From: an uncultured Bacteroidota bacterium
GTDB taxonomy: Bacteria > Bacteroidota > Bacteroidia > Flavobacteriales > Flavobacteriaceae
Direction: 5' to 3'
Assembly (NCBI GenBank): GCA_902514625.1
Contig: CABXRK010000005.1
Location: 1-55,479, forward strand
DNA length: 55,479 nt
Under the pieces are notes generated by a model. That model worked only from the letters and a program-made list of their open reading frames with translations. It had not been told where the DNA came from and searched no databases. The translations under genes were made by a program, and so were the position numbers. Positions 8,440 through 55,479 of the stretch are shown here, one piece after another. Numbering within the stretch: the first letter of the stretch is position 1; each line of letters starts with the position of its first letter.

Positions 8440-11343
8440 ATGAGGTATATATATATATTGTTTTTTATTCCAATTTTCTCATTTTCTCAGTCAATTGACC
8501 CATTATTAGTCAAAAATCATTCTGATCAAAAAAAATGGGTTGATAGTGTTTATTCCAAACTATCATTGGAAGAAAAAATAGGACAATTATTTGTGGTTTG
8601 GGCTTCTCCTAGTAGAGGTGAAAAACATTTTAAAGAAATTAAAAGACAAATAAAAAATCATAAAATTGGAGGAATAATATTTTCTTTGGGAGGTCCTAAG
8701 TCTCATGTTAAGTGGTTAAATTCATTTCAAACTTTATCTAAAATACCTTTAATGATTTCTATGGATGCAGAATGGGGAGTTGCTATGCGTTTAGATTCAA
8801 TTATGCCTTTTCCATGGAATATGACTTTAGGTGCAATTCAAGATAATAAGTTAATTGAAGAAATTGGATATAGGATTGGTGAACAAGCAAAAAGATTAGG
8901 TATACATATTAATTATTCTCCTGTGGTGGACATTAATACAAATCCAGAAAATCCTATAATAGGGAATCGTTCTTTTGGGGAAAATAGAATAAATGTTTCT
9001 AGAAAAGGAATTGCTATGATTAATGGTCTAAGTCGTTCTGGAATTTTATCATCAGCTAAACATTTTCCAGGTCATGGAGATACTTCTCAGGATTCTCATA
9101 AGGTTTTACCTAAAATCACTTTTTCAAGAAAAAGAATAGATTCAATTGAGCTTTACCCATTTAAGAAATTAATTAAAAAAGGCCTTTCGTCGATTATGAT
9201 TGCTCATTTAAATATTCCATCATTAGACAAAAATGTGCCCTCCTCAATGTCTAAAAAAATTGTTGCTAAAATATTAAAAGAAGACCTTGATTTTAAAGGT
9301 TTAATTTTTACTGACGCTCTAGATATGAAAGGGGCTACAGATTTTTCTGAGTCAGGAAATATTGATCTTTTAGCATTGCTTGCTGGAAATGATGTTTTGT
9401 TAATGTCAAATGATATTTCTAAAGGGATTAGAGCTATAAAAAAAGCTTATAATTTGAAAATTTTGACAGAAGAAAGATTATCCTATTCAGTAAAGAAAAT
9501 TTTAAAAGCCAAATATAAAGTTGGATTAAATGATTTTAATTTGATAAGTGAAGATAATCTTTTAGAAGATTTAAACCTTGATAGTGATAAAAAGCTTTAT
9601 TCTAAAGCAATTTCAAATGCAATTACAGTTTTAAAGAATGATGATGACATTATTCCAATATCAAATAAAAAGAAATATGGACTCTTAATTTTAGGAGATA
9701 CATCTTCAATTGAACTTTATGATTATCTATCTAAGAACAATAATGTATCATTAATAGACTCTGAGAAATCAATTGATAAAATTAATGAGGAAATAAATGA
9801 GTATGAAGCAACAATAATTAGTTTTCACAGGTCAAATAATAACCCTTTTAAATCAGACAAATTATCAAATAATCAAGTTAATATTATTAATGGGTTAGCA
9901 AAAAATCATCGAGTAATTTTAAACGTTTTTGACAATCCTTATTCCTTGGAGAATTCAATTGATTTAAAATTGTTAAAAGGACTAGTGATTAGTTATCAGA
10001 ATACTCAAATTACCCAATTAGAGTCCGCTTCAATATTACTTGGTGAGAAAGGGGCTATTGGAAAATTACCTGTTTCTGTTGGAGAATCATTTCAAACAGG
10101 AGACGGTCTTAAAACCTTTTCTAAAAATACTTTACGGTACTCAAGTCCTTATTCTGTAGGTATGTCTAATAATAAACTTGACGAAATTGATCAATTAATT
10201 GAAGTGGCTATTGATTCAATGATGATTCCTGGTGCTCAAGTTTTAATTTCAAGAAAAGGTAAAATTTTTTATCATAAAGCTTTTGGTTTTCATACCTATA
10301 AAAAAAGGATTCCAGTTAAAACCAATGATCTTTATGATTTAGCTTCTTTAACAAAAATACTCGCTACACTTCCTTTAATAATTCAAGAGGTAGATAGAGG
10401 GGAGTTTTCACTAGAGGATAAATTAGGAGACCTATTTCCTCAATGGAAATATACTAATAAGAGAGATATCGTTGTTAAAGATATTTTAACCCATTACGCT
10501 AAGCTAATACCTTGGATTCCTTTTTATCTTGAAACCAAGAGAAAAGGATCTGGTAAATTGAAAAGAAAAATTTATAAAAAAAGAAGTAGTAATAAATACG
10601 CAAATAAAGTTGCTGAAAAGATATTTATTAAAAACAACTATAAGGATAGAATTATTAAGGAGATTTTTGAAAGTAAATTAAGAGATACATTGGAGATGAA
10701 ATATTCTGATTTTCCCTTTATAATTTTACAAAGTTATTTGGAAGAGAAATACAATAAATCATTAAGTTCTCTAGTTGATGAAAGAATTTATAGACCATTA
10801 AATTTAAAAAAAACCTTTTTTAACCCTTTGACAAAAAAAGAAGTTAATTTAAATCAAATCGTTCCTTCTGAAAAAGATGAATATTTTAGAAATCAAGAGC
10901 TTAAAGGTTATGTTCATGACATGGCCGCAGCTATGCTGGGTGGAGTTGCTGGTCATGCGGGATTATTTTCTAACGCTAAAGATATTGCTGTCATAATGCA
11001 AATGTATTTGAATAAAGGTTTTTATAATGGTCATCGATTTTTTAGCTCTAAAACATTCGATGAATTTAATAATTGTCTCTATTGTGATTTTAAAAATAGA
11101 AGAGGTGTTGGTTTTGATAAACCACAAATAGAGGGGGATGGAATAACTTGTGGCTGTGTTCCTAAATCTAGCTTTGGGCATTCAGGATTTACTGGAACTT
11201 ATACTTGGTCTGACCCTGAAAATGAAATTGTTTATGTTTTTTTATCAAATAGAACTTTTCCAACCATGGAAAATTCATTGTTAATTGATCATTCTATTCG
11301 AACAAGAATTCAAAAGACTATATATGATGCAATTATTAAATAA
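8440..11343 (+). CDS. NagZ-like GH3 beta-N-acetylglucosaminidase fused to a serine beta-lactamase-type hydrolase
   Basis: A 967-residue exported two-enzyme protein. After a signal peptide (about 1-16) comes a GH3 domain (about 25-360) with the NagZ hallmark KHFPGHGDTSQDSH (Asp218-His220 acid/base dyad) and the nucleophile Asp292 in IFTDALDMKG. A GH3 C-terminal-like Rossmann region follows (about 385-565). The second enzyme (about 575-967) is a class-C beta-lactamase/CubicO-type serine hydrolase: SLTK (Ser636, Lys639), Y755-S-D and H914-S-G. The usual 'LTHTSGL' motif reads LTHYAKL. The pairing suggests periplasmic peptidoglycan or muropeptide trimming: removal of GlcNAc plus an amidase or D-peptidase step. 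This follows from the fusion and is untested. The fused form is a known Bacteroidota arrangement. Confidence 0.87.
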   Translation: MRYIYILFFIPIFSFSQSIDPLLVKNHSDQKKWVDSVYSKLSLEEKIGQLFVVWASPSRGEKHFKEIKRQIKNHKIGGIIFSLGGPKSHVKWLNSFQTLSKIPLMISMDAEWGVAMRLDSIMPFPWNMTLGAIQDNKLIEEIGYRIGEQAKRLGIHINYSPVVDINTNPENPIIGNRSFGENRINVSRKGIAMINGLSRSGILSSAKHFPGHGDTSQDSHKVLPKITFSRKRIDSIELYPFKKLIKKGLSSIMIAHLNIPSLDKNVPSSMSKKIVAKILKEDLDFKGLIFTDALDMKGATDFSESGNIDLLALLAGNDVLLMSNDISKGIRAIKKAYNLKILTEERLSYSVKKILKAKYKVGLNDFNLISEDNLLEDLNLDSDKKLYSKAISNAITVLKNDDDIIPISNKKKYGLLILGDTSSIELYDYLSKNNNVSLIDSEKSIDKINEEINEYEATIISFHRSNNNPFKSDKLSNNQVNIINGLAKNHRVILNVFDNPYSLENSIDLKLLKGLVISYQNTQITQLESASILLGEKGAIGKLPVSVGESFQTGDGLKTFSKNTLRYSSPYSVGMSNNKLDEIDQLIEVAIDSMMIPGAQVLISRKGKIFYHKAFGFHTYKKRIPVKTNDLYDLASLTKILATLPLIIQEVDRGEFSLEDKLGDLFPQWKYTNKRDIVVKDILTHYAKLIPWIPFYLETKRKGSGKLKRKIYKKRSSNKYANKVAEKIFIKNNYKDRIIKEIFESKLRDTLEMKYSDFPFIILQSYLEEKYNKSLSSLVDERIYRPLNLKKTFFNPLTKKEVNLNQIVPSEKDEYFRNQELKGYVHDMAAAMLGGVAGHAGLFSNAKDIAVIMQMYLNKGFYNGHRFFSSKTFDEFNNCLYCDFKNRRGVGFDKPQIEGDGITCGCVPKSSFGHSGFTGTYTWSDPENEIVYVFLSNRTFPTMENSLLIDHSIRTRIQKTIYDAIIK

Positions 11344-41280: not shown

Positions 41281-44200
41281 TTGTATAGGTTAATTAAAAA
41301 TACATATTTAAAATTTCCAATAAATTTATCGCTAAGTTTAAAAGCATTATTACCCCTTATACTTTTCTTTACTTTTAACTTTTTAACTGCACAAAACCCT
41401 GAACTTGAGGTTACTACTTTCCCTAATTTAACTACTAATAGTGGTCCTGCTGTAGTTGGTCTCAATGATGTTATTACATTTAAGATTTTAGTTAAAAACA
41501 CTGGTAACATTCAGTTAAGTACAGTCACTGTAACAACTAACTTGACCGGATTAAATTCAGCCGCTCTTGCTCTTAGTTCTACACCTGTATTTCTTAGTGC
41601 AAGTTCATCTTCACCTGAAGGAACCTTGATGGTTGGTGAAGTTGCTACTTATACCGCTACTTATACTTTTATATCATCTGGTGTTTCAGCTGGTGGAGTT
41701 AGTCTGGCTGTTACCTCAACTGCTCAAACCCTTGCAGGTTCACCTACTTCAGATTTAGGTGATGATGGAGATGATACTGATGGAAACACCACTAATGATC
41801 CAAATATTATTACTGTAGGTCAGCCCATAGCAAGGGTGGAAGGTACTAAAACCGAAAATTATGTTGATTTAGATGGGAATGGAGCTATAGGGCTTGGAGA
41901 TAGAATGGAATATATTATTAAAGTTAAAAACACTGGTAATCAAACCCTTAGCACTGCTGACTTAACCGATGTTCTTAAAAACAACTACAACATTTCTTTG
42001 GTTTTAATCGAGCCTGGGGTTACCCCTCCTGGTACTCCATTTGTTGTTTCTGATCAAGGATCGACAGAGGGAAATCTTTTAGTCGGGGAAACAGCTGAAT
42101 ATAAGGCTGTTTATGTTATTGATCAGGATGATGTTGATAGTGGAGGATTAAATAACTGTTTAACCATAACAGCTGTAAGTGTTGTCTCTGGGGCTACAAT
42201 TACAGATGTAGCTGATGATGGCGATGATTCTGATGGGAACTCAGTTGATGATTGTACCGAAACAACTATTACTGCATCTCCGTCTATTGAAGTTACTAAA
42301 GTTTACACGGTTAACGATGCAAATAATAATGGCTCAAATGATCCTGGAGATACGATTAATTATTCCATAACAGTATTAAATAATGGGAATGTTACTCTTC
42401 ATGGGTTGTCTCTTACAGACACTTTTAAAGATGGTAGTGGAGGAAATCTTTCTTTAACTAGTGGGCCTACATTTGTTTCCAATAGTGCTTCCTCTGCTCA
42501 AGGGACTCTAACCGTTGGTGAATACGCAACCTATTCTGCATCTTATCTAGTTACAGTAAATGCTGCAAATACTGGCAGTGTTTCAAATACAGTTCTCGCT
42601 ACAGCTAGTAGTCCTGGTCAGACTAATAATGTTACTGATGTTTCTAAAGATGCTGATAATAGTGATGGAAATATAGTCGATGATGCTACTATAACGCCTC
42701 TTACTTTAACTAAATCTTTAGATGTAGAAAAAACTTATTTAGTTGTTGATAATGGTGATGGAGAACTTGGAGCTGATGATGTTATTAATTATACAATAGT
42801 AGTAAGAAATACAGGTCAAATTGCACTTTCAAATATTACAGTTAATGAAACTATCAAAGATGGAGTTGGAGGAGCATTATCTTTAAATGCTGGTGTTCAA
42901 GGGCCTTCCGGAGCCTCATTAGCTACCGGTCAGTCGATCACATTTACCTCAAGCTATACCATAACTTCAGGTAATGTAGGGACTGGATCTGTTTCTAACA
43001 CCGCTATTGTTTTTGGAAGTAGCCCGGGAAATACTAATGATGTAAGCGATCAAAGTGATGACGGAAATGATTTAGATGGAAATACTGTTAACGACTCCAC
43101 GGTAACAAATTTTGCTGCAAGCGCTGCCATAGAAGTTACTAAAACAGGAGTTTTAGTTGAGAGTAGTGGAGATAATTTACCTGGAGTTGGAGATACTGTA
43201 GTATTCACTATTAAGGTAGAAAACATTGGTAATACCGCAGTAGGAACCTTGACCTTAGTCGATACTTTTAAGAGAGGAGATGCGCCTGATAACACAACTA
43301 TTTCACTAACGTCAGGACCAACATTTAATAGCGCATCACTAGGCTCTTCTGTTGGAAATCTTGTAGCTGGTGAGGTTGCAACTTATACGGCAAGTTATAC
43401 TGTGGTTTCTGCTGATGTTGCATCATCTACCGTTTTTAACTCAGTTACGGCAAGTGCTACTACCGTTGATGGAAGTACTAATGTTAATGATATTAGTGAT
43501 GATGGAAATGATTTAGATGGGAATACCTCTACGGATGAGACTTTTGTTGGGGTTGTTCAGCAGCCTGCAATAGAAGTTACTAAAACAGTTGTTGTTAATA
43601 AAGCTGGTTCAGTTGTAGCTAAAAATGATGTTGCTGTTTATACTATCACAATTGCAAACACAGGAAATGTTAGTTTGACAAATGTTTCTTTATCAGATAA
43701 TATTCAGGGAATATTATTATCATCGTCCTTGTCTTTGGCAGCAGCTCCAGTTTTTAGAAGTGCTACACTTGGCTCAAGTGCAGGATCTCTTTTAATTGGT
43801 GAGGTTGCTACCTATCAAGCTTCTTTTACAATAAATCAAGTTGCGGTTGATAATAATGGATTTAGAAATGTTGTTACTGGATCAGCGCAAGGACCAGATT
43901 CAACAACAGTTAATGATGTTGGTGATGATGGTATCGATGATGATGGAAATGTTTTGAATGATCCAACTGATGTGGTAATACTTGAGAATCCTAATATTGA
44001 AGCTGTAAAAACCTGGACTTATACTGATAACGACGGCACTGGAACTTTAACACCTGGAGATAGAATTAATTACACGATTACTGTTCAAAATAAAGGTAAT
44101 GTTACCTTGGATAATGTCACAATGGCTGATGATCTTAGATTAATAAGTGAAACTGCAACTAGGAGTCTTGCTACAGGGCCTAATTTTCAAAGTGCGGATC

Positions 44201-47200
44201 AATCTTCATCTTTTGGAATATTAAAACCAAATGAAACTGCAACTTATGTTGCAAACTATATCCTAACTCAGGATGATATCAATAATGGTGGAATAAAAAA
44301 TTCTGCAACCGTAACCGCTACAACTCCTGCAAATGCTTCAACTTCAGATATCTCTGATGATAATAACGATACTGATGGAGATATCACTAGTGATTATACG
44401 GAAAGCCCGGTAACTACACTGCCAGGAATTGAAGCAATGAAAACTTCTGTAATTATTGATAATGGAGATGGAGTTACTGGCATTGGAGATAAAGTAGCAT
44501 ATACGCTTATTGTGTCAAACACCGGTAATGTTACATTGGATTCAGTAACTGCTACCGATACCCTAACCGATATGGCAAGTAATACTTTATCCCTTACTAA
44601 TCCACTAACTTTTTTAAGTGCTACTAAAGGCTCCGATTCTAATAGTTTACTTTTTGGTGAAGCTGCTACATATTTAGCTACTTATACAATAAATCAAGCA
44701 GCTATGGATATGGGAGGTCTTAGCAATTCTGTTTATGTATCTGGTTCGATTTTCTCTACTACTGTCACCGATACCTCTGATGATGGGGACGATACCGATG
44801 GAAATACTACTGATGATGCAACACAAAACATTTTGTCTCCCACCTTAATAATGGATGTAACTAAAACGGCAGTTGTAGTAGATAATGATTTAGATGGGGA
44901 GACTGGAGTTGGAGATACTATTGTGTATACTATATCAATAGTTAATTCAGGAACTTCTTCACTAGCTTCTTTTACTTTAGCTGATACTCTCCAAGATGCA
45001 GCGGGGAATAGTTTAAGTCTTGCAAATAATCCAACTACTACAGCAACAGGAAGCTTATCTCCAGGTGCTACCAGAACCTATACTGCCAGCTATACCATTT
45101 CACAATCCGCAGTGGATAATGGTGGGGTGAAAAATTCTGTGCTAGTAACAGCGAGTAATTTAACTGGAACTCAATTTGTTAATGATGTTTCAGATGATGG
45201 TATTGATGGAGATGGGAATACCGTAGATGATAAAACAGAAACATTAATTTCCGCTGATGCTACTTTAGAAGCAACAAAGACCTTTACGAATAAAGACAAT
45301 GATGGAGATGGTCTTATCTCTGTTGGAGATAAGGTAGTTTATACAATTACTGTAAAAAATACTGGTAATGTCACTCAAAATAGTATTTATCTCACTGATA
45401 CTTTAACAGATTTTGATGGAGCCGCAAGACAATTAGACCCTTATGCTTGGAGTAACAGAATTGCCTTTGTCTCTTCCACTGCTTCTTCATCAAGAGGCAG
45501 TTTGGTGTCTGGAGAAACTGCTTCTTATACAGCAACCTACACAGTAGTTTCTGGAGACATTTCCAGTGGTGGGGTGAAAAATTCTGTGGTAGCGACAAGC
45601 TATGTATTTCCTGAAGGTGTTCAGACAGTCTTAGCAAGTGATACCTCTGATGATGGTGATGATACAGATGGAAATGTTGTTGATGACCCTACTAAATCTT
45701 ATTTAGGAATTCTCCCTTCATTTGAGGTTACTAAAACAGCCACTGTCACTGATAATGGAAATGGTGAGATAGGGGTTGGAGATACCATTAACTATACTAT
45801 TACTGTAGCAAACACATCATCGGATGTTTTGCAGAATTTAACTTTTGTTGACACCTTAAAAGATGCCCTAGGAACTTCTTTGTCAATGTCAACAGGGCCT
45901 GCATTTGTTTCTGCAACCGCAACATCATCTGTAGGAAATCTTATTGTTGGTGAAACAGCTACCTATAGTGCCACTTATATCATTACCCAAACAGACGTAG
46001 ATTCTGGTGGTGTTGAAAACACGATAACCTTCACAGGAAATTCTGCTCGAAACCCTGATATGTCTGAAAAAGATGTAAAGGATGTCAGTGATAACGGCAA
46101 TGATGCAGATGGAAATACAACCGATGATCCCACATTCACATTACTGGGAACCGATTCTGATAATGATGGTGAACCTGATACTACTGATATAGATGATGAT
46201 AATGATGGAATATTAGATCGATATGAATTGTGTTTAAGCTTTAGTTTAAATGGAAATAATTTTCAGAATTATTCTGGTTCAGTCCCAATATCGACAGGTT
46301 CTGATTATAATAGTACCAATAATTTAGTGAGCCCTTATCCTAATAAGGCTAAGTTACCCCCATTTAGTGCGGCTAATAATGATGGAGATGTATGGACAAC
46401 GGGTCAAAATGCCAATGGAGTTACTTTTTCCCCCTATCAAGGGCAGTTCTATTTAGAGTTATTAGTTAACCAAGGAGCTGGAAACGACAAGTCATATTGG
46501 AATGAAACCAGTCATACTCAAGGGAGTAATTTTGATAGGGTAGTTGCTTTTGAGACAGTATATCCTAATCAAACCTATACGGTTAGTTATTATCACAAAG
46601 TAGGAGGAAGAAAGGATGTAAACTTTGGATCAGGGGCTAACACCTTAATTCAGGTTCAATCCATGCAGACTTCCTATCAAGTCTCTCAAACAACAACGCC
46701 GGGAGCTTCTTGGGGCAATGGCAGCTATACTTTTACAACCGATAGTCAGACCACTCAGGTTGCTATACTGTTTTCTCCATTCTCCCCAGCAGGGAATAGT
46801 TCATCAATACAATTAGACGCAATTTCTTTTACTTCAAATGTCACATGTACTGCCGATATAGATGGAGATGGAATTATAAATGGATTAGATTTAGATTCTG
46901 ATAATGATGGTATTTATGATGTCGATGAGGCAGGGGTGGGTGCTTATGATACTAATGGTGATGGTAGAATAGATATTAATGATGCTTCATTTGCAGATAA
47001 TGATTATAACGGGGCTAATGATGCAACCCAAACAACTTCACCAACAAATACCGATGGTGATTTAGATATTGATGCTTTCGAATTAGATGCTGATGACGAT
47101 GGATGTAAGGATGTGTTAGAGGCTGGGTTTACAGACGACAACAACGATGGTTTATTGGGAACTCAAGCACCTCCAAATGTTAATGCAAATGGAAAGGTTA

Positions 47201-50200
47201 CCAGTGGCTCTGATGGTTATACTACCCCAGCAGATTCTGATGGTAATTCAGTCAAGGATTTTCAACAAGACACTTATGATGTGGGTTGTTATTATCCAGG
47301 ATTAGATGCAATTAAAACTTATAATATAATTGATAATAATGGAAATTCTTTAAATGATCTTGGAGATGAGGTAGTTTATACTATTACCGTTTCTAATACT
47401 GGTATTTTACCATTACAATTAACCACTCTTACAGATAATTTAAGATCGGAGACTGGTGCTTCAATTTCCTCACTTACCCTTGACTTTACTTCTGTTTCAT
47501 CAACTACTGAATCTGCAGTTGCTACTAACCTTTTTAGGTATTCCAACTATTTAAATCACAATAATGATAGTAGTAGATGGTATAGAAATGGAAGTATGGG
47601 CGGTCAAATTCAGAGTTATAACAATGCGCCTGCTAATATAGATTATTATTTCAATACAAATTCTGGGTCTTCCCATTCTGATGTAAATGCTTTTTTTCCA
47701 ACTGTAGGATTTGGAACTACACCTTCAAATGATTATACCCCCAGTGAGAATAGATTGTATAATAGTCGTGTTTACAATGGTTATGATGGTGCTATTGGAA
47801 GTAAATTAAACAGTTATATGTATCAAAATATTGCTCTTGAGCCCAATACAACTTATACTATTTCTGCTTGGATATCTAGAGGAACCAGCAGTAGCAATTC
47901 AATTTATTGGGATGATCCATTTAACTTTGTTGTTTGGCAAGGATCAAGCGGTACGGGAAATGCTAGAGAGAATTCTCAAGGGTTTATTCCTTCGAGTTAC
48001 TATAGTCAGGGAACCAATGCTTTTGATAGGGTTTCTTATACTTTTACAACGGGAGCAACCATTGGAGCTACATCTAGAGTGGGGTATTCTCCGGGATACA
48101 ATCAAGGTTATGGTCAACATATTTGGGGGATGCAATTTGAGAAGGGTTCCACTCCTTCGGATTATTATATTTATACTTATTCGAGTATAAGTGCTGCTCC
48201 ACCGGGAAATTTAGGATATTTTGATCCTCGAACAACAAACTTGCCAATTGGAGCGGTAGCAACCTATACCACGACATTAACATTAACTCAAGATGTTCTT
48301 AACCAGGCTAATACATTAATGAATAGTGTTGATTTAATAGGTTCTTATATTACCCCTGGTGGTATTTCAGGTACGGTAACAGCAACCTCCGATGACAACG
48401 ATGATACTGATGGTAATACTGTGGATGATCCTACTGAAACACCCTTAAATAATACTGCAGGTATGTCGTTGACAAAAACCTATTCCGTATCAGATCAAAA
48501 TGGAAATGGAATTACTGATGTGGGAGATATTATAACTTATTCGTTAAATGTTTCAAATACTGGAAACGTTGCTCTTTCAACACTTTCTGTTACAGACACT
48601 TTATCAAACTTGGATGGTGATCTTATTCAATCATCAAATATATCATCTATGACAGTTGCTGGGTCTAAAAATTATTTTAAGTATTCTAATTATTTAAGAG
48701 TAAATAATAATAGTTACTGGAAGAATCAAAATGGTCATAGCAATCAAAATTATCATTGGCAAAATTGGAATCCTGGAAATTTAAAATATTATTTCAGCAC
48801 CGCCTCTGGAAGAAACTACTCTGATGTAGATGATTTTTTTACTACTGAAGGGTTTGGAATTACACCCACTGATGATATTCAATCAGGAGAGGGTTATTTA
48901 GAGAGTGGAAGGGTGGCTGGGAATTCTAACTATTCAAATACTACTGATTTAGCTGTAAGAAAGAATAATTATTATTTTCAGGACATTACACTTGAACCTG
49001 GAACAACCTATACAATTTCAGGTTGGTTAGCACGAGGTAACTCTGGATCAGTTTCCAGATATGATGATCCTTTTTATTTTATGTATATGCACGGGACATC
49101 TCACAATGTAAATGATGTTGTTTATTCTGACCCTATAGTCCCTAGTTATAATTATGACAGTGGTGATGTAAATGCTAATTTTCAAAGATATTCTTTTACT
49201 TTCACTACCCCTTTAACTCTTTCTGGAACTTCAAGAGTAGGTTTTTCATTTGGTTATAATGATAATTATGGTCAGATGTATTGGGGAATGCAATTAGAAA
49301 AAGGATCAACAGCAGGGAGGTATATTTATACTTGGAGTAATACGAATGAGACTCCCGACTTAATAAATGAGACAGTAGACTATACAAAGTGGAATAGTGG
49401 GGAACCTAATAGTGGAAGTCCGTATGATTATGCTATAATGTATTCTTCAACTAATCCATATTCCCAGGATGATCAAGGGAGCAGTAATTATCGTCATATA
49501 GTTGAGTTTAGTAGCGTTGTCTCTCCAACACCTTCAGGTTATGAAAATTATTTAGGAGAATTAAATGGGCACACTTATTTTCAGGATGATGGCACTCAAA
49601 ATTATACCAATTCTAAAAATCAGGCAGAGACGGCGGGAGGGTATCTTTTTTCTCCTAACACTAAAAGTGAGTGGGATTATATAGGCACACAAGTAAACGC
49701 TGTTCGGTCAAATCAATGGCATTACATTGGAGTTTATCAAGACACTTCCAGAGATGATTATGAGGAACCTGAAAAGGGATGGGTTAATTCAGATGGTAAT
49801 TTAGTATCCACACCAAAAATTGCTGAGTTTACTGGAATTGGTAATGGTGAAGAAGCAACTTTTCAATATAAATATACCATCACCCAGGCTGATTATGATG
49901 CTGGGGGATTGTCCAATACGGCTATAATAAGCGATGCTTCTTCTGGAGCCTCAGACACCTCTGATGATGGGGACGATACCGATGGAAATACTGTTGATGA
50001 CCCCACTGTTTTAAATGTTGATAAAGTTGTTGCTTTTGAGGTTACCAAAACAGCGTCTGTAACTGATAACGGGGATACTATAAATGGGGTAGAAGATATT
50101 GTTGAATATACAATAAAGGTAAAAAATACTGGAACGGTTAATCTAAATCAATTAGTAATTGAAGATATTCTTTCTGATGCATCAAGTAGCACGCTATCTT

Positions 50201-53200
50201 TAAATTCTACCCCTACATATGTTCAGACAAATAAATTCATTAAGGGTTCTGATTTGAATACTAATGATTATTGGGGTAATTCAAGTGAGCCAAATTCAAG
50301 CTCTACAAATAGAAGATATGCCCAATTTAGGGTTAATTCAATAGGGAATGAAGGGTTTTGGGATGAATATAATTATAATCAATCAATAAGATATATAGTT
50401 GAGTCTTCCATTGCAACCACAACATTTAATGCTGGGAGTGGCTATGTTTATTTTGGATTTCACAATGGTCATTATTATTATGCCTCAGGAAGCACAGCAG
50501 ATTATGCCACTGCTAAATCAAATTCAACAACAGCTTATAGTACAATACTTATAATAAATAATGATGCTGAATTTCAGTTTATCAAAGGAAAAAGAGCGGA
50601 TTTGGCAACTATTTATAACGCGTATTATTGGATAGGTCTTGAGCAGGATCATAGTGCTTCGGACTATGCTCATCCTAGAGGAGGGTGGTATTGGGCAGAT
50701 GGGACCCCTTTATCTAAATCAGGGCAAGTTAGCGTAACAACAGTTGCTGCAACAACTACAATTAATATTAATGAAGAATTAACCTACACTGCTTCTTATA
50801 CGATTACGCAACAAGATGTTGATACGGGACTTATCTCTAATATTGTCTCATCAACGGCTGTATCAATATCAAGTGTAACAGTCACGGATACATCAGATGA
50901 CAGGTCTTGTGGTGCAGGAGATTATGTAAGTTCTTATTGGACTTCTAGCCATCCATCCTCTACAAGTGGTTATGAATATGCGGGTTTATACAGAAATGAT
51001 GGTAAAATAATTTCCATGCCTAATGTGTCTGCTGAACATATTTTAGAGATGAATTCAGCTAGTGTAACACCAACAGGGTATGTCTTTGGGGGTTCTTATG
51101 GTGGTCATGGGTATTATTACTATCCAGGTGAATTAACATGGGAGGGTGCAAAAATAAAAGCGAAAGCCTCGGGAGGTTATTTGCTTGTGATTAATTCAAC
51201 AGCTGAATTAAATTACATTACTTCAATGAAGAATAATTTAACAAATCCTTCAGATTCCGCACAGTCATCCTGGATTGGTTTAAAACAAGATGAGTTTTCT
51301 TGTAGTTATTCTGAACCCTCAGGAGGGTGGTTTTGGGTAGATACATCTGACAATAAAGATCCTTCCAATACGGTGTTAGATAATAGCCCTTTAATGGAGG
51401 TGACAAAAACTGCTACTGTTTCTGATGTTAATGCAAATAGTTTAAATGATGCTGGAGATATAATTGTATACACGATAACTGTTGAGAATAAAGGGAATGT
51501 TACCATTAGCACACCTACTTTTAATGAGTATTTGATAGATGGAGAAGGGACAAATTTAACAAGTTCTTTAGTCGGACCAACGTATACCTCAAAAACTTTT
51601 AGCCCAACAATTAAAGAGATTCAAGTCACTGTGGCTGCTGGTAGTGGTGGAGGTAATAAGTATTTCTTAAATGGAATCGAGGCTAAAGATGTTGTTTTTC
51701 AAAGAGGTTATACCTATAGGTTTTTTCAAAGTGAGGCTTCCAATTCAGGCCATCTATTAAAGTTAAGCACTGTCGATGATGGAACTAACGGTGGAGGCTC
51801 TGCATACACTACTAATGTTACTGAAACTGGCACTCCTGGTAATGCAGGGGCATATACAGAAATAAAAATTACGGATACTACTCCAGCTTTATTTTATTAT
51901 TGTTCTAACCATGCTGGAATGGGAGGTAATAGTGTTTTTCTTCCAGGAGCCGCTATTGTACCAAAAATTTTAAGGCCTTTTGAAACCGAGACTTATACAG
52001 CTACATATACTATTGGTGCAGCATCAGGAGGCACGGCGTTTATTAGCAATACAGTCTCTGTAACTGGAAGCACTTTTGGTCAGACCAATAATGTCAGTGA
52101 TACCTCTGATGATGGAGATGACACTGATGGCAATACTGTTGATGATGAGACTAGAGTTGATCTCTCTCCCGTAGCTAGCTTTGAAGTAACAAAAACAGGG
52201 ACTAAAACTATAGATGATGGAGATGGTTTATTAGGGCCTGGCGATACGATTACTTATACCTATGTTGTTAGCAATACAGGTAATTTAAAAATTGAAGGAA
52301 TAACCCTTACCGATACAATGATAGATGGTTATGGGAATTCTATTTCTTTGTCAACCGGGCCTACTTTTGTTTCAGCCTCTCTAGGGTCAACTTCAGGAAC
52401 GATAGAGCTTTCAGAGATAGCATCTTATACAGGAACATATGTTCTTCCTCAGCAGACTGTAAATAGTGGTCTGGTTTCTAATTCATTATATGTTGCAGGA
52501 AGCACTTATGGGTTTACAAATAATGTAACCGACACCTCTGATGATGGTGATGATACTGATGGTAATACTGTGGATGATCCCCTTGTTATTCCTATCCCTG
52601 AAGTTTTAGATTTAGAGGTTACTAAAACAGCTATAGTTAATGATCTTAATCAAGATGGAATAACCAATTTAGGAGATCAAATACACTATACATTTACTAT
52701 TAACAACAAAGGAAACACATCAATTAATACTTTAACTTTTGTTGATAACTTATTGGATTTCAGTGGATCTACTGTGACAAATACAATTCTTACAATTCCG
52801 GAAGGCCAAAACTTATTTGGTAGATCAAATGCCATTGATGATACCGATAATGTTTGGGATGATAATGGAACTCCTTCAGGAGGAGATCGAAATTGTTCTC
52901 AGGCTGAATGTTTAGATATTCCAAAAGGAATACCATATTATTATGGGTCGCCGTCAGGAAGTACATTTAACGCAGACCTTCAAACAGTTTTCCCTAATAC
53001 TGGATTCGGAACAACCTCCCAGGCGGGAAATGCATCTGCTTCAAACGGAATGAGAGCTTCAAGATTATGGTCATCATCGGATACCTCATTTGTTTATCAG
53101 GATATAACTTTTGATGCCAATACTGACTATACAATATCTATTTATGCTAAAGCAACAACAGGTCCATTTAATGATCCTATGCATTTTGTGGTTTGGGATG

Positions 53201-55479
53201 GTACAGGTTCATTTGATGCTGCTGAAGTTGATGACTCTTATAAATCAGCGCCTTATTATCTAACCAATCAATGGAAAAGATATACTTACACTTTTAAGAC
53301 TGGTTCTGGAGGAGCAGGAAGAGTAGGATTCCACCCTCCAGTGCAATCTCAAAATAATATTTTTTGGGGTGCTCAATTAGAAAAACTTGATAAGGCAACA
53401 CCATACATTCATACATATGATAGTAAACCCATAAGAAATACCTCTCAACTTCAAGATAATGTTCAGATATTAAATTCAGGTGATACTATTACTATGGATG
53501 GCTATTTTAATATATCCCAAGATGCAGTAAATTCCGGTGGTGTTTCTAATACACTTATTGTTTCTGCTACTTCTGTTAGATCTTCTTCTGTAAGTGATAC
53601 TTCAGATGATGGTGATGATACTGATGGAAACACTACTGATGATGTAACTTTTACAGAGATCACTTCTGTTCCTTCTATAGAAGTTACTAAAATAGCTACG
53701 GTTGCTGATACTAATTCTAATACTAAAGTTGATTTAGGAGATATAATAACTTATACGATAAATGTATCAAATACTGGAAATACTGCCATTACTGGAATTT
53801 CTTTCGCTGATGTAATAACCACTTCACTGGGCGCGCAACTTTCTTTAAATGCCCCTCCGGCAAGAATTTTTACAAGTAATGGCTCTGACGTTGGGACTTT
53901 AAAAGTAGGGGAATATGCTACCTATATAGGTCTATTTACAATTAATGCCACTGCTTTTGCTGCTGAAAAAATAAGTAATACTGCTACCGTTACTGCAAAT
54001 GCGGGAGGTCAAACAGGGAATGTTAGTGACACCTCTGATGATGGTGATGATACTGATGGAAATACTACTGATGACCCAACGGAGACAACTATGGAACCTA
54101 CTCCAGGTATAGAGGTTACCAAAACAGCTATCTTAAATGATGATAATGGAAATTCCACTACTGATGTAGGAGATTCAATTAAGTTTATTATAATAATAGA
54201 GAATACCGGAAACACAAATCTTTCTAGTTTAACCTTTGTAGATACATTAGTAGATAAAACTGATTCTAGCCTCTCTCTAACAAATGGACCGTATTTTGTT
54301 TCAGCAACACAATCCTCTACTGTTGGAAATTTAAAATTACAAGAGACGGCAACGTATCATGCTTTTTTTACCATTAACACTCAAGCTATTAATGCTGGAA
54401 GTGTTAAGAACTCAGTGCTTGCTACAGCTAGCAGTCCTGGAAATAGTAATAATGTTACAGATACTTCTGATGATGGTGATGATACAGATGGTAATACTAC
54501 TGATGATGTCACTGAAGTTCAAGTTACTTCTGGGGGAAGTATTAATGTAACTAAAGTATCCTCGGTATTTGATAATGGAGATGGTATTACCGGTGCTGGA
54601 GATACAATTAATTATGTGATTAAAATAGTTAATACTGGAACAGCCTCTTTAACTTCCCTTACTGTTTCTGATACTTTAACTGATAATAATGGAGGTGTGT
54701 TAGCGCTTTCTAATGGACCTAGTTTTGTTTCAGCAACTCAATCCTCAACTACAGGGACAATTAAACCTGCAGAAATTGTTACTTATTCTGCAGCTTATGT
54801 AATTCAACAGTCTGCTGCTGAGACTGGAGGAATTAAAAATTCTGTTACCGTAACCGGAAGTTCTCCTGGAAACACCAACGATGTTACCGATGTTAGTGAT
54901 GATGCAGATGATACAGATGGTAATACTGTTGATGATCAAACTATTGTCGGAATTTCTTTACTTCCAGTTCTTGAGGTTACAAAAACATCTACTATTACAG
55001 ATAATAACAGTAACAATTTAATTGATTTAGGGGATGCCATTGTTTATAATATTACTGTTCAAAATAAAGGTAATGTAATTATTACAGGGGTCTCTATATC
55101 AGATATTGTTAAAGATGGCAATGGATCTCCTCTGAGTTTAATAGCAACTCCTACATTTATTTCCTCCAGTGCCAGCTCAGCACAGGGAACTTTAACTGTA
55201 AATGAAACGGCTACTTATAGTGCAACAATTATAATTAATCAACAGGCTGTAGATAGTGGAAGTATTTCTAATACAGTTTCTTCAACTGGAAGCAGTCCAG
55301 GTAACAGCAATGATGTTTCAGATGTTTCAGACAATGGAGATGATACTGATGGAAATACCTCAAACGACCCAACAGTTGTTTCTATAACTAATTCACCTTC
55401 AATTGAAGTAACAAAGACCTCTTCAGTTACCGATAATAACGGTAATGGAGAGGCGGATCTTGGAGATACAATCACCTAT
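41281..55479 (+). CDS. Giant secreted adhesin-like protein with DUF11/DUF7507 repeats, 3' end beyond window
   Basis: One open frame of 4,733 codons runs unbroken from TTG 41281 to the window end; I read it line by line and found no in-frame stop. It starts after a TAA at 41266. No ATG lies between that stop and the hydrophobic segment, so TTG is the best start. A signal peptide (about 21-38: ALLPLILFFTFNFLTAQ) precedes one divergent and about 21 typical Ig-like repeats, each beginning EVTKTA and ending in SDDGDDTDGNTVDDP. Extra modules within repeats: TSP3 and jelly-roll (46141-47280), jelly-rolls (47521-48180, 48660-49340, 52800-53430), lectin-like domains (49378-49803, 50248-50715, 50926-51363) and a cupredoxin-like domain (51616-51950). 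It is probably a type IX-secreted surface adhesin. The C-terminal sorting domain is not visible. A wholly structural role or a glycan-binding role are both possible. Confidence 0.85.
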   Translation, partial: MYRLIKNTYLKFPINLSLSLKALLPLILFFTFNFLTAQNPELEVTTFPNLTTNSGPAVVGLNDVITFKILVKNTGNIQLSTVTVTTNLTGLNSAALALSSTPVFLSASSSSPEGTLMVGEVATYTATYTFISSGVSAGGVSLAVTSTAQTLAGSPTSDLGDDGDDTDGNTTNDPNIITVGQPIARVEGTKTENYVDLDGNGAIGLGDRMEYIIKVKNTGNQTLSTADLTDVLKNNYNISLVLIEPGVTPPGTPFVVSDQGSTEGNLLVGETAEYKAVYVIDQDDVDSGGLNNCLTITAVSVVSGATITDVADDGDDSDGNSVDDCTETTITASPSIEVTKVYTVNDANNNGSNDPGDTINYSITVLNNGNVTLHGLSLTDTFKDGSGGNLSLTSGPTFVSNSASSAQGTLTVGEYATYSASYLVTVNAANTGSVSNTVLATASSPGQTNNVTDVSKDADNSDGNIVDDATITPLTLTKSLDVEKTYLVVDNGDGELGADDVINYTIVVRNTGQIALSNITVNETIKDGVGGALSLNAGVQGPSGASLATGQSITFTSSYTITSGNVGTGSVSNTAIVFGSSPGNTNDVSDQSDDGNDLDGNTVNDSTVTNFAASAAIEVTKTGVLVESSGDNLPGVGDTVVFTIKVENIGNTAVGTLTLVDTFKRGDAPDNTTISLTSGPTFNSASLGSSVGNLVAGEVATYTASYTVVSADVASSTVFNSVTASATTVDGSTNVNDISDDGNDLDGNTSTDETFVGVVQQPAIEVTKTVVVNKAGSVVAKNDVAVYTITIANTGNVSLTNVSLSDNIQGILLSSSLSLAAAPVFRSATLGSSAGSLLIGEVATYQASFTINQVAVDNNGFRNVVTGSAQGPDSTTVNDVGDDGIDDDGNVLNDPTDVVILENPNIEAVKTWTYTDNDGTGTLTPGDRINYTITVQNKGNVTLDNVTMADDLRLISETATRSLATGPNFQSADQSSSFGILKPNETATYVANYILTQDDINNGGIKNSATVTATTPANASTSDISDDNNDTDGDITSDYTESPVTTLPGIEAMKTSVIIDNGDGVTGIGDKVAYTLIVSNTGNVTLDSVTATDTLTDMASNTLSLTNPLTFLSATKGSDSNSLLFGEAATYLATYTINQAAMDMGGLSNSVYVSGSIFSTTVTDTSDDGDDTDGNTTDDATQNILSPTLIMDVTKTAVVVDNDLDGETGVGDTIVYTISIVNSGTSSLASFTLADTLQDAAGNSLSLANNPTTTATGSLSPGATRTYTASYTISQSAVDNGGVKNSVLVTASNLTGTQFVNDVSDDGIDGDGNTVDDKTETLISADATLEATKTFTNKDNDGDGLISVGDKVVYTITVKNTGNVTQNSIYLTDTLTDFDGAARQLDPYAWSNRIAFVSSTASSSRGSLVSGETASYTATYTVVSGDISSGGVKNSVVATSYVFPEGVQTVLASDTSDDGDDTDGNVVDDPTKSYLGILPSFEVTKTATVTDNGNGEIGVGDTINYTITVANTSSDVLQNLTFVDTLKDALGTSLSMSTGPAFVSATATSSVGNLIVGETATYSATYIITQTDVDSGGVENTITFTGNSARNPDMSEKDVKDVSDNGNDADGNTTDDPTFTLLGTDSDNDGEPDTTDIDDDNDGILDRYELCLSFSLNGNNFQNYSGSVPISTGSDYNSTNNLVSPYPNKAKLPPFSAANNDGDVWTTGQNANGVTFSPYQGQFYLELLVNQGAGNDKSYWNETSHTQGSNFDRVVAFETVYPNQTYTVSYYHKVGGRKDVNFGSGANTLIQVQSMQTSYQVSQTTTPGASWGNGSYTFTTDSQTTQVAILFSPFSPAGNSSSIQLDAISFTSNVTCTADIDGDGIINGLDLDSDNDGIYDVDEAGVGAYDTNGDGRIDINDASFADNDYNGANDATQTTSPTNTDGDLDIDAFELDADDDGCKDVLEAGFTDDNNDGLLGTQAPPNVNANGKVTSGSDGYTTPADSDGNSVKDFQQDTYDVGCYYPGLDAIKTYNIIDNNGNSLNDLGDEVVYTITVSNTGILPLQLTTLTDNLRSETGASISSLTLDFTSVSSTTESAVATNLFRYSNYLNHNNDSSRWYRNGSMGGQIQSYNNAPANIDYYFNTNSGSSHSDVNAFFPTVGFGTTPSNDYTPSENRLYNSRVYNGYDGAIGSKLNSYMYQNIALEPNTTYTISAWISRGTSSSNSIYWDDPFNFVVWQGSSGTGNARENSQGFIPSSYYSQGTNAFDRVSYTFTTGATIGATSRVGYSPGYNQGYGQHIWGMQFEKGSTPSDYYIYTYSSISAAPPGNLGYFDPRTTNLPIGAVATYTTTLTLTQDVLNQANTLMNSVDLIGSYITPGGISGTVTATSDDNDDTDGNTVDDPTETPLNNTAGMSLTKTYSVSDQNGNGITDVGDIITYSLNVSNTGNVALSTLSVTDTLSNLDGDLIQSSNISSMTVAGSKNYFKYSNYLRVNNNSYWKNQNGHSNQNYHWQNWNPGNLKYYFSTASGRNYSDVDDFFTTEGFGITPTDDIQSGEGYLESGRVAGNSNYSNTTDLAVRKNNYYFQDITLEPGTTYTISGWLARGNSGSVSRYDDPFYFMYMHGTSHNVNDVVYSDPIVPSYNYDSGDVNANFQRYSFTFTTPLTLSGTSRVGFSFGYNDNYGQMYWGMQLEKGSTAGRYIYTWSNTNETPDLINETVDYTKWNSGEPNSGSPYDYAIMYSSTNPYSQDDQGSSNYRHIVEFSSVVSPTPSGYENYLGELNGHTYFQDDGTQNYTNSKNQAETAGGYLFSPNTKSEWDYIGTQVNAVRSNQWHYIGVYQDTSRDDYEEPEKGWVNSDGNLVSTPKIAEFTGIGNGEEATFQYKYTITQADYDAGGLSNTAIISDASSGASDTSDDGDDTDGNTVDDPTVLNVDKVVAFEVTKTASVTDNGDTINGVEDIVEYTIKVKNTGTVNLNQLVIEDILSDASSSTLSLNSTPTYVQTNKFIKGSDLNTNDYWGNSSEPNSSSTNRRYAQFRVNSIGNEGFWDEYNYNQSIRYIVESSIATTTFNAGSGYVYFGFHNGHYYYASGSTADYATAKSNSTTAYSTILIINNDAEFQFIKGKRADLATIYNAYYWIGLEQDHSASDYAHPRGGWYWADGTPLSKSGQVSVTTVAATTTININEELTYTASYTITQQDVDTGLISNIVSSTAVSISSVTVTDTSDDRSCGAGDYVSSYWTSSHPSSTSGYEYAGLYRNDGKIISMPNVSAEHILEMNSASVTPTGYVFGGSYGGHGYYYYPGELTWEGAKIKAKASGGYLLVINSTAELNYITSMKNNLTNPSDSAQSSWIGLKQDEFSCSYSEPSGGWFWVDTSDNKDPSNTVLDNSPLMEVTKTATVSDVNANSLNDAGDIIVYTITVENKGNVTISTPTFNEYLIDGEGTNLTSSLVGPTYTSKTFSPTIKEIQVTVAAGSGGGNKYFLNGIEAKDVVFQRGYTYRFFQSEASNSGHLLKLSTVDDGTNGGGSAYTTNVTETGTPGNAGAYTEIKITDTTPALFYYCSNHAGMGGNSVFLPGAAIVPKILRPFETETYTATYTIGAASGGTAFISNTVSVTGSTFGQTNNVSDTSDDGDDTDGNTVDDETRVDLSPVASFEVTKTGTKTIDDGDGLLGPGDTITYTYVVSNTGNLKIEGITLTDTMIDGYGNSISLSTGPTFVSASLGSTSGTIELSEIASYTGTYVLPQQTVNSGLVSNSLYVAGSTYGFTNNVTDTSDDGDDTDGNTVDDPLVIPIPEVLDLEVTKTAIVNDLNQDGITNLGDQIHYTFTINNKGNTSINTLTFVDNLLDFSGSTVTNTILTIPEGQNLFGRSNAIDDTDNVWDDNGTPSGGDRNCSQAECLDIPKGIPYYYGSPSGSTFNADLQTVFPNTGFGTTSQAGNASASNGMRASRLWSSSDTSFVYQDITFDANTDYTISIYAKATTGPFNDPMHFVVWDGTGSFDAAEVDDSYKSAPYYLTNQWKRYTYTFKTGSGGAGRVGFHPPVQSQNNIFWGAQLEKLDKATPYIHTYDSKPIRNTSQLQDNVQILNSGDTITMDGYFNISQDAVNSGGVSNTLIVSATSVRSSSVSDTSDDGDDTDGNTTDDVTFTEITSVPSIEVTKIATVADTNSNTKVDLGDIITYTINVSNTGNTAITGISFADVITTSLGAQLSLNAPPARIFTSNGSDVGTLKVGEYATYIGLFTINATAFAAEKISNTATVTANAGGQTGNVSDTSDDGDDTDGNTTDDPTETTMEPTPGIEVTKTAILNDDNGNSTTDVGDSIKFIIIIENTGNTNLSSLTFVDTLVDKTDSSLSLTNGPYFVSATQSSTVGNLKLQETATYHAFFTINTQAINAGSVKNSVLATASSPGNSNNVTDTSDDGDDTDGNTTDDVTEVQVTSGGSINVTKVSSVFDNGDGITGAGDTINYVIKIVNTGTASLTSLTVSDTLTDNNGGVLALSNGPSFVSATQSSTTGTIKPAEIVTYSAAYVIQQSAAETGGIKNSVTVTGSSPGNTNDVTDVSDDADDTDGNTVDDQTIVGISLLPVLEVTKTSTITDNNSNNLIDLGDAIVYNITVQNKGNVIITGVSISDIVKDGNGSPLSLIATPTFISSSASSAQGTLTVNETATYSATIIINQQAVDSGSISNTVSSTGSSPGNSNDVSDVSDNGDDTDGNTSNDPTVVSITNSPSIEVTKTSSVTDNNGNGEADLGDTITY
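46141..47280 (+). other. Thrombospondin-type-3 block split by a jelly-roll-like domain (within the giant CDS)
   Basis: DSDNDGEPDTTDIDDDNDGILDRYELC is followed by about 200 residues of jelly-roll-like sequence (GQFYLELLVNQGAGNDKSYW, QTYTVSYYHKVGG, SIQLDAISFTSNVTC) and then TSP3 resumes: DIDGDGIINGLDLDSDNDGIYDVDEAG, DADDDGCKDVLEAG. The Asp-rich loops will bind calcium. The two Cys that flank the insert (LC... and TC...) may bridge. Confidence 0.7.
47521..48180 (+). other. Inserted jelly-roll domain 1 of 3 (within the giant CDS)
   Basis: LFRYSNYLNHNND...YYFNTNSGSSHSDVNAFF...YMYQNIALEPNTTYTISAWISRG...FDRVSYTFTTGA...HIWGMQFEKGSTPSDYYIYTY. The closing 'WGmQlEkGs...YiyT' line is typical of carbohydrate-binding jelly-rolls that are also found in phage tail proteins. 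It is inserted between the two halves of a DUF7507 unit. Confidence 0.7.
48660..49340 (+). other. Inserted jelly-roll domain 2 of 3 (within the giant CDS)
   Basis: FKYSNYLRVNNNSYW...KYYFSTASGRNYSDVDDFF...YYFQDITLEPGTTYTISGWLARG...RYSFTFTTPL...YWGMQLEKGSTAGRYIYTW. It is clearly homologous to domain 1 throughout and is followed directly by a lectin-like module. Confidence 0.7.
49378..49803 (+). other. C-type-lectin-like domain 1, halves in swapped order (within the giant CDS)
   Basis: First comes the usual C-terminal half: YTKWNSGEPNSGSPYDYAIM ... NYRHIVEF. Then the usual N-terminal half: GHTYFQDDG...NSKNQAETAGGYL...KSEWDYI...WHYIGVYQD...GWVNSDGN. The EPN tripeptide is the calcium/mannose-type motif. 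Confidence 0.6.
50248..50715 (+). other. C-type-lectin-like domain 2, halves in swapped order (within the giant CDS)
   Basis: C-half first: NDYWGNSSEPNSSSTNRRYA ... FWDE...SIRYIVE. N-half next: GHYYYASGSTADYATAKSNS...INNDAEFQFI...YYWIGLEQD...RGGWYWADGTPL. Its Ca motif residues (SEPN, W-D) look conserved. Confidence 0.6.
50926..51363 (+). other. C-type-lectin-like domain 3, halves in swapped order (within the giant CDS)
   Basis: C-half first: DYVSSYWTSSHPSSTSGYEY...EHILEM. N-half next: GHGYYYYPGELTWEGAKIKA...ASGGYLLVINSTAELNYI...SSWIGLKQD...SGGWFWVD. EPN is replaced by HPS, so calcium or sugar binding may be lost in this copy. Confidence 0.55.
51616..51950 (+). other. Cupredoxin-like domain with candidate type-1 copper site (within the giant CDS)
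   Basis: About 110 residues: KYFLNGIEAKDVVFQRGYTYRFFQSEASNSGHLLKLST...GAYTEIKITDTTPALFYYCSNHAGMGG, with the wanted blue-copper ligand set His3491, Cys3541, His3544 and Met3547 (C-x2-H-x2-M as in amicyanin). Similar blocks are known in marine bacterial and phage structural proteins. Numbers count from the TTG start. Confidence 0.65.
52800..53430 (+). other. Inserted jelly-roll domain 3 of 3 (within the giant CDS)
   Basis: LFGRSNAIDDTDNVW...YYYGSPSGSTFNADLQTVF...FVYQDITFDANTDYTISIYAK...WKRYTYTFKTGSGGAGRVGF...FWGAQLEKLDKATPYIHTY. It aligns with domains 1 and 2 but is more diverged; it carries two Cys (CSQAEC) that the others lack. Confidence 0.7.

Follow-up and report, generated by a model that had tools for sequence, protein, structure and literature searches.

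The window analysed here (55,479 nucleotides) is an entire contig, CABXRK010000005.1, of a 1.25-Mb assembly (GCA_902514625.1; 63% complete, 60 contigs) from an uncultured Bacteroidota bacterium of the family Flavobacteriaceae. It ends inside an open frame for a giant protein composed of DUF11 and DUF7507 repeats. The repeat pattern is broken by three stretches, each of about 150 amino acids (aa), which consist of the two halves of a C-type-lectin-like domain (CTLD) in reverse order: the half that closes an ordinary CTLD (C-half) leads and the half that opens it (N-half) trails. These three units are very probably circularly permuted CTLDs. The reading draws on the order of the sequence, the homology of both halves, the continuity of the host domain around unit 2 and the conservation of the arrangement in relatives.

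The units lie at about 49372-49815, 50245-50715 and 50914-51363, with the C-half before the N-half (C-N order) in 3/3. In each unit a W..xEPN-like ... (H/Y)I(V/L)E segment leads, followed by GH.Y ... (W/Y)IG(L/V).Q ... GW. A preliminary description of this DNA had placed three CTLD-like units with swapped halves at 49378-51363, which is confirmed with unit limits near those first given. Its wording of the motifs was right as to their order but not in every letter: unit 3 has SHPS and HILE instead of GEPN/SEPN and RYIVE, unit 2 is without the GG of "GG.L" (AYSTIL), and unit 1 ends in GWVNSDG. The features are as follows.

41281 to 55479, forward strand: giant DUF11/DUF7507 repeat protein, open frame of 4733 aa with no stop up to the contig end.
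49372 to 49509, forward strand: C-half of unit 1, leading (W.SGEPN ... RHIVEF), from sequence.
49534 to 49815, forward strand: N-half of unit 1, trailing (GHTYF ... YIGVYQD ... GW), from sequence.
50029 to 50229, forward strand: first part of the DUF7507/DUF11 domain that hosts unit 2, from the joined flanks (DUF7507, 61.7 bits).
50245 to 50406, forward strand: C-half of unit 2 (W.NSSEPN ... YIVES), predicted β3-β4-β5, from sequence and model.
50440 to 50715, forward strand: N-half of unit 2 (GHYYY ... YWIGLEQD ... GGWYWADG), predicted β1-β1'-α1-α2-β2, from sequence and model.
50755 to 50898, forward strand: second part of the host DUF7507/DUF11 domain of unit 2, from the joined flanks.
50908 to 50910, forward strand: Cys3210 at the entry to unit 3, conserved in orthologues L119 and L120.
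50914 to 51054, forward strand: C-half of unit 3 (W..SHPS ... HILEM), in the linker between two DUF11 repeats, from sequence.
51070 to 51363, forward strand: N-half of unit 3 (GHGYY ... SWIGLKQD ... GGWFWVD), from sequence.
51301 to 51303, forward strand: Cys3341 in the loop that follows WIGLKQD in unit 3, conserved in orthologues L119 and L120.

Exchanging the halves while keeping identical residues raised the score of the Pfam Lectin_C profile (PF00059) in 5/5 units of this genome, by 6.8 to 11.4 bits, in a comparison run without a shuffle control. The window units rose from 18.0 to 29.4 bits (unit 1), 18.7 to 28.5 (unit 2) and 26.2 to 33.8 (unit 3). The other two, which rose from 30.4 to 39.2 and from 30.7 to 37.5, belong to a protein on a second contig of the same genome that carries two C-N units, one ordinary-order CTLD and a Por_Secre_tail, the sorting tail of type IX secretion. 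The curated PF00059 cut-off of 22.6 bits is passed by the whole giant protein (24.1) and by native unit 3; native units 1 and 2 fall under it, and all three units are above it after the exchange. In native order the match reaches no further than the N-half (profile position 47-64 of 107), and after the exchange it extends to positions 80-92. Because the order of the halves is reversed in all three, the units are classed as a permuted variant and not as ordinary members of PF00059.

A family profile built from 69 conventional CTLDs of related bacteria gave the same direction on a larger set. Among 65 C-N rows, which include near-copies, fragments and tandems as well as two ordinary tandem CTLDs of Planctomycetes (L139, L157), the exchanged order scored above the native one in 64, with a mean gain of 21.9 bits. 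It also scored above the best of 10 shuffled C-halves in 61/65 rows and above the N-half followed by its true downstream sequence in 55/65. The ten exceptions to the last comparison are eight C-N-C-N tandems, L139, and L024, a fragment of unit 3 at a locus end. Another 52 rows, in which an N-half alone was in reach, lie outside the scored set.

When 31 C-N units and 28 conventional CTLDs are aligned as profiles, two blocks appear in crossed order: query 64-146 pairs with template 18-102 (probability 99.8), and query 4-49 pairs with template 100-148 (probability 95.3). After the exchange they merge into a single block of 129 columns (probability 99.95). Similarly, among sequence profiles of the PDB the native order matches Mincle (4kzv) by its N-half (65-152 to chain 9-84), DC-SIGN also by its N-half and CEL-I (4wqq) by its C-half (3-46 to chain 91-135); the exchanged order covers most of Mincle (15-153 to 9-128), of DC-SIGN and of CEL-I (17-151 to 13-135). 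The gain is one of coverage of some single CTLDs. The exchange gave no better best E-value (8e-20 vs 1.3e-21 in native order, both to proteins with many CTLDs), the number of PDB profile matches at E 0.01 hardly changed (180 vs 177 native), and many exchanged-order matches still stop near position 98. The linker between the halves, measured from the profile ends, is 6-7 residues long in 31/43 non-redundant C-N rows. Both halves are homologous to one family and can be aligned with it in one piece once exchanged. The profile alignment, the comparison of structural elements below and the relatives all support what had been proposed, a circularly permuted CTLD whose new ends lie in the long loop (W.W.DG | W..GEPN).

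Unit 2 modelled alone by AlphaFold2, from an alignment to which 30 further C-N rows, some of them tandem, contributed, has a predicted local distance difference test score (pLDDT) of 85.1 and a predicted template-modelling score (pTM) of 0.85; only the last few residues are poor. A conventional CTLD modelled as a control (L122:3980-4432, 28 rows) reached a pLDDT of 90.6 and a pTM of 0.87. The control has ten elements, which we take to be β1, β1', α1, a short strand, α2, β2, the W.W strand, β3, β4 and β5. All ten are matched in unit 2 with the last three placed first, for example CWIGLYQ in the control by YYWIGLEQ and WRW by WYW, and unit 2 has two extra short helices (6-9 and 117-123). Unit 2 in its native order is thus predicted to fold as one compact domain, and the permuted units would probably pack as CTLDs do. 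Compared with the CTLDs of PF00059 such as CEL-I, langerin and DC-SIGN, both halves match in sequence and the ten elements have counterparts, whereas the permuted units run β3-β4-β5 before β1-α1-α2-β2 and have their ends in the long-loop region. The conventional CTLD in the second-contig protein (L006:6979-7428, contig C12) keeps the ordinary order, with both halves recognisable, beside its two permuted neighbours. A second difference is the W of the WND motif, found by a simple pattern in 5/43 permuted vs 42/49 conventional rows and so mostly lost in the permuted ones.

The same halves could be paired differently. If each N-half joined the C-half of the next unit (N1-C2, N2-C3), the protein would contain ordinary CTLDs with host parts in their long loops. 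The spacing of N2 to C3 is only about 70 residues, and in the C-N-C-N inserts of L031, L102, L116 and relatives the inner N-half runs directly into the inner C-half; scored as a conventional CTLD in eight rows, this inner pair reaches 98.7-109.4 bits, above the C-N pair exchanged. Such pairing would however leave the window's first C-half and last N-half as orphans, and the model of unit 2 by itself is a single confident domain, whose host closes across the insert. It is also countered by ten stop-closed open reading frames (ORFs; 519-560 aa between stops), about eight distinct proteins given the near-copies L107/L109 and L036/L117, in which exactly one C-half and one N-half were found, in C-N order. 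Since only one of each half was found, pairing with a neighbour is excluded within the chain for these ten, and the packing of halves with conventionally ordered neighbours, named beforehand as the outcome that would speak against permutation, does not apply to them. Neighbour pairing in the window is considered very improbable.

Unit 3 offers a hint that the halves of one unit belong together. Of the only 11 Cys among the 4733 aa of the giant protein, two, at the C-half entry and in the loop after β2 of unit 3, are conserved in both orthologues. In a permuted CTLD the positions of Cys3210 and Cys3341 are expected to be near each other, and a disulfide between them is possible. CTLDs have two conserved disulfides, a pattern that the window units do not show: units 1 and 2 have no Cys, and the two of unit 3 are at other places.

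Double inserts of the form C-N-C-N occur in DUF11 repeats of L102, L105, L106, L108, L113-L116, L031 and L034. Such an insert could consist of two permuted units, or one permuted unit could enclose a conventional CTLD between its halves; the arrangement may preserve a trace of the mechanism of the permutation or of its spread.

Assembly scrambling or a chimeric contig might be suspected in a repetitive gene from an assembly of such completeness and fragmentation. Yet the orthologues in TMED220 and NAT163 (L119, L120) have three units in the identical order, two more C-N units lie on another contig of this genome, and others are found on a 2.03-Mb contig of Candidatus Arcticimaribacter forsetii. 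Direct repeats in 49000-51700 amount to three pairs of 19-20 nt that are 80-84% alike; being short and this dissimilar, they make mis-joining at repeats unlikely. The repeat scan of this region found nothing resembling target duplications. The earlier argument that a consistent order speaks against scrambling is borne out by the orthologues, the second contig, the 2.03-Mb contig and the ten short ORFs, and scrambling is left with a negligible probability.

The host domains were analysed by joining the flanks of the units. With unit 2 excised, DUF7507 matches at 61.7 bits across the junction and over nearly the whole profile (4-104 of 105). The host differs from several other repeats of the giant protein by its insert of 175 aa, which follows "(G)PT.V" and precedes the GE.ATYTA.Y strand; the insertion site can be seen from the insert-free repeats. 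Unit 3 by comparison lies between two DUF11 repeats, in an acidic linker, and its junction is not covered by any domain. A Pfam scan of ten joined flanks, with the best stretch listed for each, gave a domain spanning the junction in 2/10, unit 2 and L030 (Big_3_3, 17.2 bits, below the cut-off); in 6/10 the best listed stretch does not span the junction and in 2/10 there was no family match. The non-spanning hosts were judged by eye. On this basis the unit occurs in relatives in an Ig-like domain, at either of two loops ("STTPSSI" or "VLVSFSE"), in Big_3_3-like domains (L030, L038) and in a cadherin-like array (L073), and in L039 it lies close to the N-terminus of a protein that matches SASA esterase weakly. 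The proposal that the units plug into a host domain holds for unit 2, whose DUF7507 domain is restored, and, mostly by eye, probably for the relatives; it is less certain for unit 3, which occupies a linker and not a loop inside a repeat.

Other domains interrupt the repeats as well. CBM_4_9 or GTA spike-fibre-type inserts occur in DUF11 repeats at about aa 2080-2330, 2460-2690 and 3830-4060; NF048003 matches three stretches of the giant protein, the best at 3910-4048, and the other two insert places were seen by eye. Because these inserts are at an equivalent place, the DUF11 loop appears to accept several kinds of domain. By eye, a cupredoxin-type insert (~51590-51960, aa 3438-3560; motif FYYCSNHAGMGG) occupies the equivalent part of another DUF11 repeat. 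An FG-GAP-like repeat stretch (DMDGDGDMDI..AS...DDTIAWYENNG) lies upstream of the CTLD halves in the DUF11 region of L058. In L010, L040, L042 and L046 conventional CTLDs are, by eye, apparently inserted into an Ig/PKD-like domain through their natural ends, and so would be oriented oppositely to the permuted units.

Several observations weigh against permuted, working CTLDs. L066 shows no gain on exchange (45.5 to 44.1 bits with the family profile), and at least one N-half (L037, aa 245) stands in a similar DUF11 setting with no C-half visible upstream. A crude regular expression for the Ca2+/sugar site, EP[ND]..E..[ND]D, matches 17/43 permuted vs 37/50 conventional rows and 0/3 window units, though it does match one orthologue of unit 1 (L019). 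Units 1 and 3 are degenerate, the latter with HPS in place of EPN. Searched with Foldseek, the unit 2 model had no counterpart at E <=0.001 in the PDB or among viral models, with no CTLD among the PDB matches listed (best 50 of 51), and VIA-align on the Foldseek list reached Z up to 3.8, again with no CTLD among the matches listed. The conventional control by comparison gave 491 Foldseek matches at E <=0.001 with CTLDs on top and VIA Z up to 19.1. The failure to find a CTLD with the permuted model is probably due to the dependence of these aligners on chain order; with these sequential aligners the permuted fold was not confirmed by superposition. A C-type lectin protein of Ranid herpesvirus 3, at rank 7 among the viral matches (best 50 of 132), was too weak to be considered (E 1.9, probability 0.18).

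The complete Ca2+/sugar pattern is also missing from 13/50 conventional rows, and many CTLDs are without a complete Ca2+/sugar site. EPN alone is present in units 1 and 2. By our own reading, 14 of the 17 permuted rows with the full pattern are in Ig-like hosts; L103 is among the relatives whose unit has the full site.

The degenerate motifs of units 1 and 3 could mean that the units are relics, broken remains of tandem CTLDs left in loops and unfolded or non-functional. The C-N-C-N tandems are a possible source of such remains, and some N-halves, among the 52 rows of all kinds mentioned above, have no C-half in reach. Against this stand the nearly constant linker between the halves in the sorted permuted rows, the open frames retained across many genomes and different hosts, and the confident fold prediction for unit 2, which leave decay a very improbable explanation. 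At one place in genome G377, seen in both L037 (aa 245) and L067 (aa 674), an N-half in a DUF11 setting has no upstream C-half that could be found; the C-half is suggested to be lost or no longer recognisable.

The order of the halves was assigned among the loci retrieved, the best <=30 per search. Permuted CTLDs were by this count found only within Flavobacteriales, although some of the records are unplaced Bacteroidetes. Two of the three other genus members searched have three units each, and C-N units occur in at least 11 further genomes of the family (G083, G099, G113, G117, G169, G266, G298, G307, G315, G317, G377) and in one genome in each of two other Flavobacteriales families (L073; L074, with a C-half seen by eye and unscored). 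A named collection of 65 loci contains 19 in C-N order (L102-L120), from Flavobacteriaceae, Flavobacteriales or unplaced Bacteroidetes, and 46 that are conventional, N-only or conventional tandems. The two loci of Candidatus Arcticimaribacter forsetii (L112, L116) share its one 2.03-Mb contig. C-N order is absent from the 50 loci retrieved outside this order, elsewhere in the class and phylum; 8 of them have N-halves only. No relatives were found in viral contigs by pattern search, and none of unit 2 in phage records. Matches to query A1 occur in 7/40 and 41/397 genomes, and to query A2 in 44, 45 and 18 of 395 genomes each (overlapping samples); both counts include conventional CTLDs.

A tree of N- plus C-halves (97 rows, once near-copies, rows containing X and those lacking a C-half in reach had been removed) separates 47 permuted or tandem rows from 50 others across one branch with a support of 72. 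One change of order suffices on this tree, so that a single origin fits, weakly supported; the low support is a further point against the reading as a whole. L039, on a long branch, is among the least certain rows.

The rest of the window gives the setting of the giant protein, whose N-terminus resembles a signal peptide by eye. In Pfam the protein has 25 stretches of DUF7507 and 19 of DUF11. A scan of 10 of the 21 other window ORFs of >=150 aa found two SusC/SusD pairs, a fusion of GH3 and a beta-lactamase-type domain and a deacetylase-type enzyme. This neighbourhood fits a glycan-using marine bacterium and points to no particular ligand. In the fusion (8440-11343) it is a GH3 N-terminal domain that is joined to the beta-lactamase-type domain, on the contig with the two SusC/SusD pairs. 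Planctomycete-type DUF1501 and PSD1/PSCyt genes lie on this flavobacterial contig at 36250-41002 (reverse strand).

The two ends of a conventional CTLD meet at its base, and the long loop, which carries the Ca2+ site, is directed away from them. In the permuted form the old N- and C-termini would be joined through the short linker and the chain opened between W.W.DG and W..GEPN. Both new ends would then exit the domain at about one place, on the binding face, as the short linkers, the Cys pair and the insertion in loops suggest. Because the new ends exit together, a unit could ride as a loop without breaking its host; in this way units 1 and 2 would each extend a loop of a DUF7507/DUF11 repeat, and unit 3 would occupy a linker between repeats. 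The Ca2+/sugar-binding segment would face the host rather than point away. The site would stay in one piece because the cut is just upstream of EPN; the Ca2+-2 ligands of mannose-binding protein are presumably all located after it.

The units may be binding modules, for sugar or protein ligands, arrayed along the stalk of a long surface adhesin. Adhesion of some kind is a reasonably likely role. Sugar binding by the three window units is rather doubtful, and with their Ca2+ ligand set incomplete, their binding may be independent of Ca2+ or directed to something other than sugar.

The simplest history would have the permutation occur once, early in Flavobacteriales, and the unit spread into different hosts afterwards. 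Somewhat favoured, on the whole, is that this single event produced a plug-in lectin now carried in loops of at least four kinds of host domain, with its ligand face turned hostward and conventional CTLDs persisting alongside. No natural circularly permuted CTLD was found in the literature covered, which comprised titles and the starts of abstracts, with subscription papers mostly outside it. A carbohydrate-binding module studied in 2010 reportedly has a fold other than the CTLD. In passages of PMC4444583 the sole mention of permutation is a reference-list entry (2010) on carbohydrate-binding modules. As far as that entry tells, the 2010 work is alike in that a carbohydrate-binding domain is circularly permuted and unlike in that the modules are not CTLDs.

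CTLDs are one of the most used binding folds. Here their permutation is tied to a visible use, since ends that meet at one point allow insertion into a loop. Order-dependent annotation detects only half of such a domain, so that permuted CTLDs are missed or drawn wrongly. The units offer a nature-tested cut site for inserting CTLDs into other proteins, and a direct route to asking whether reversing a lectin on its stalk alters what it binds.

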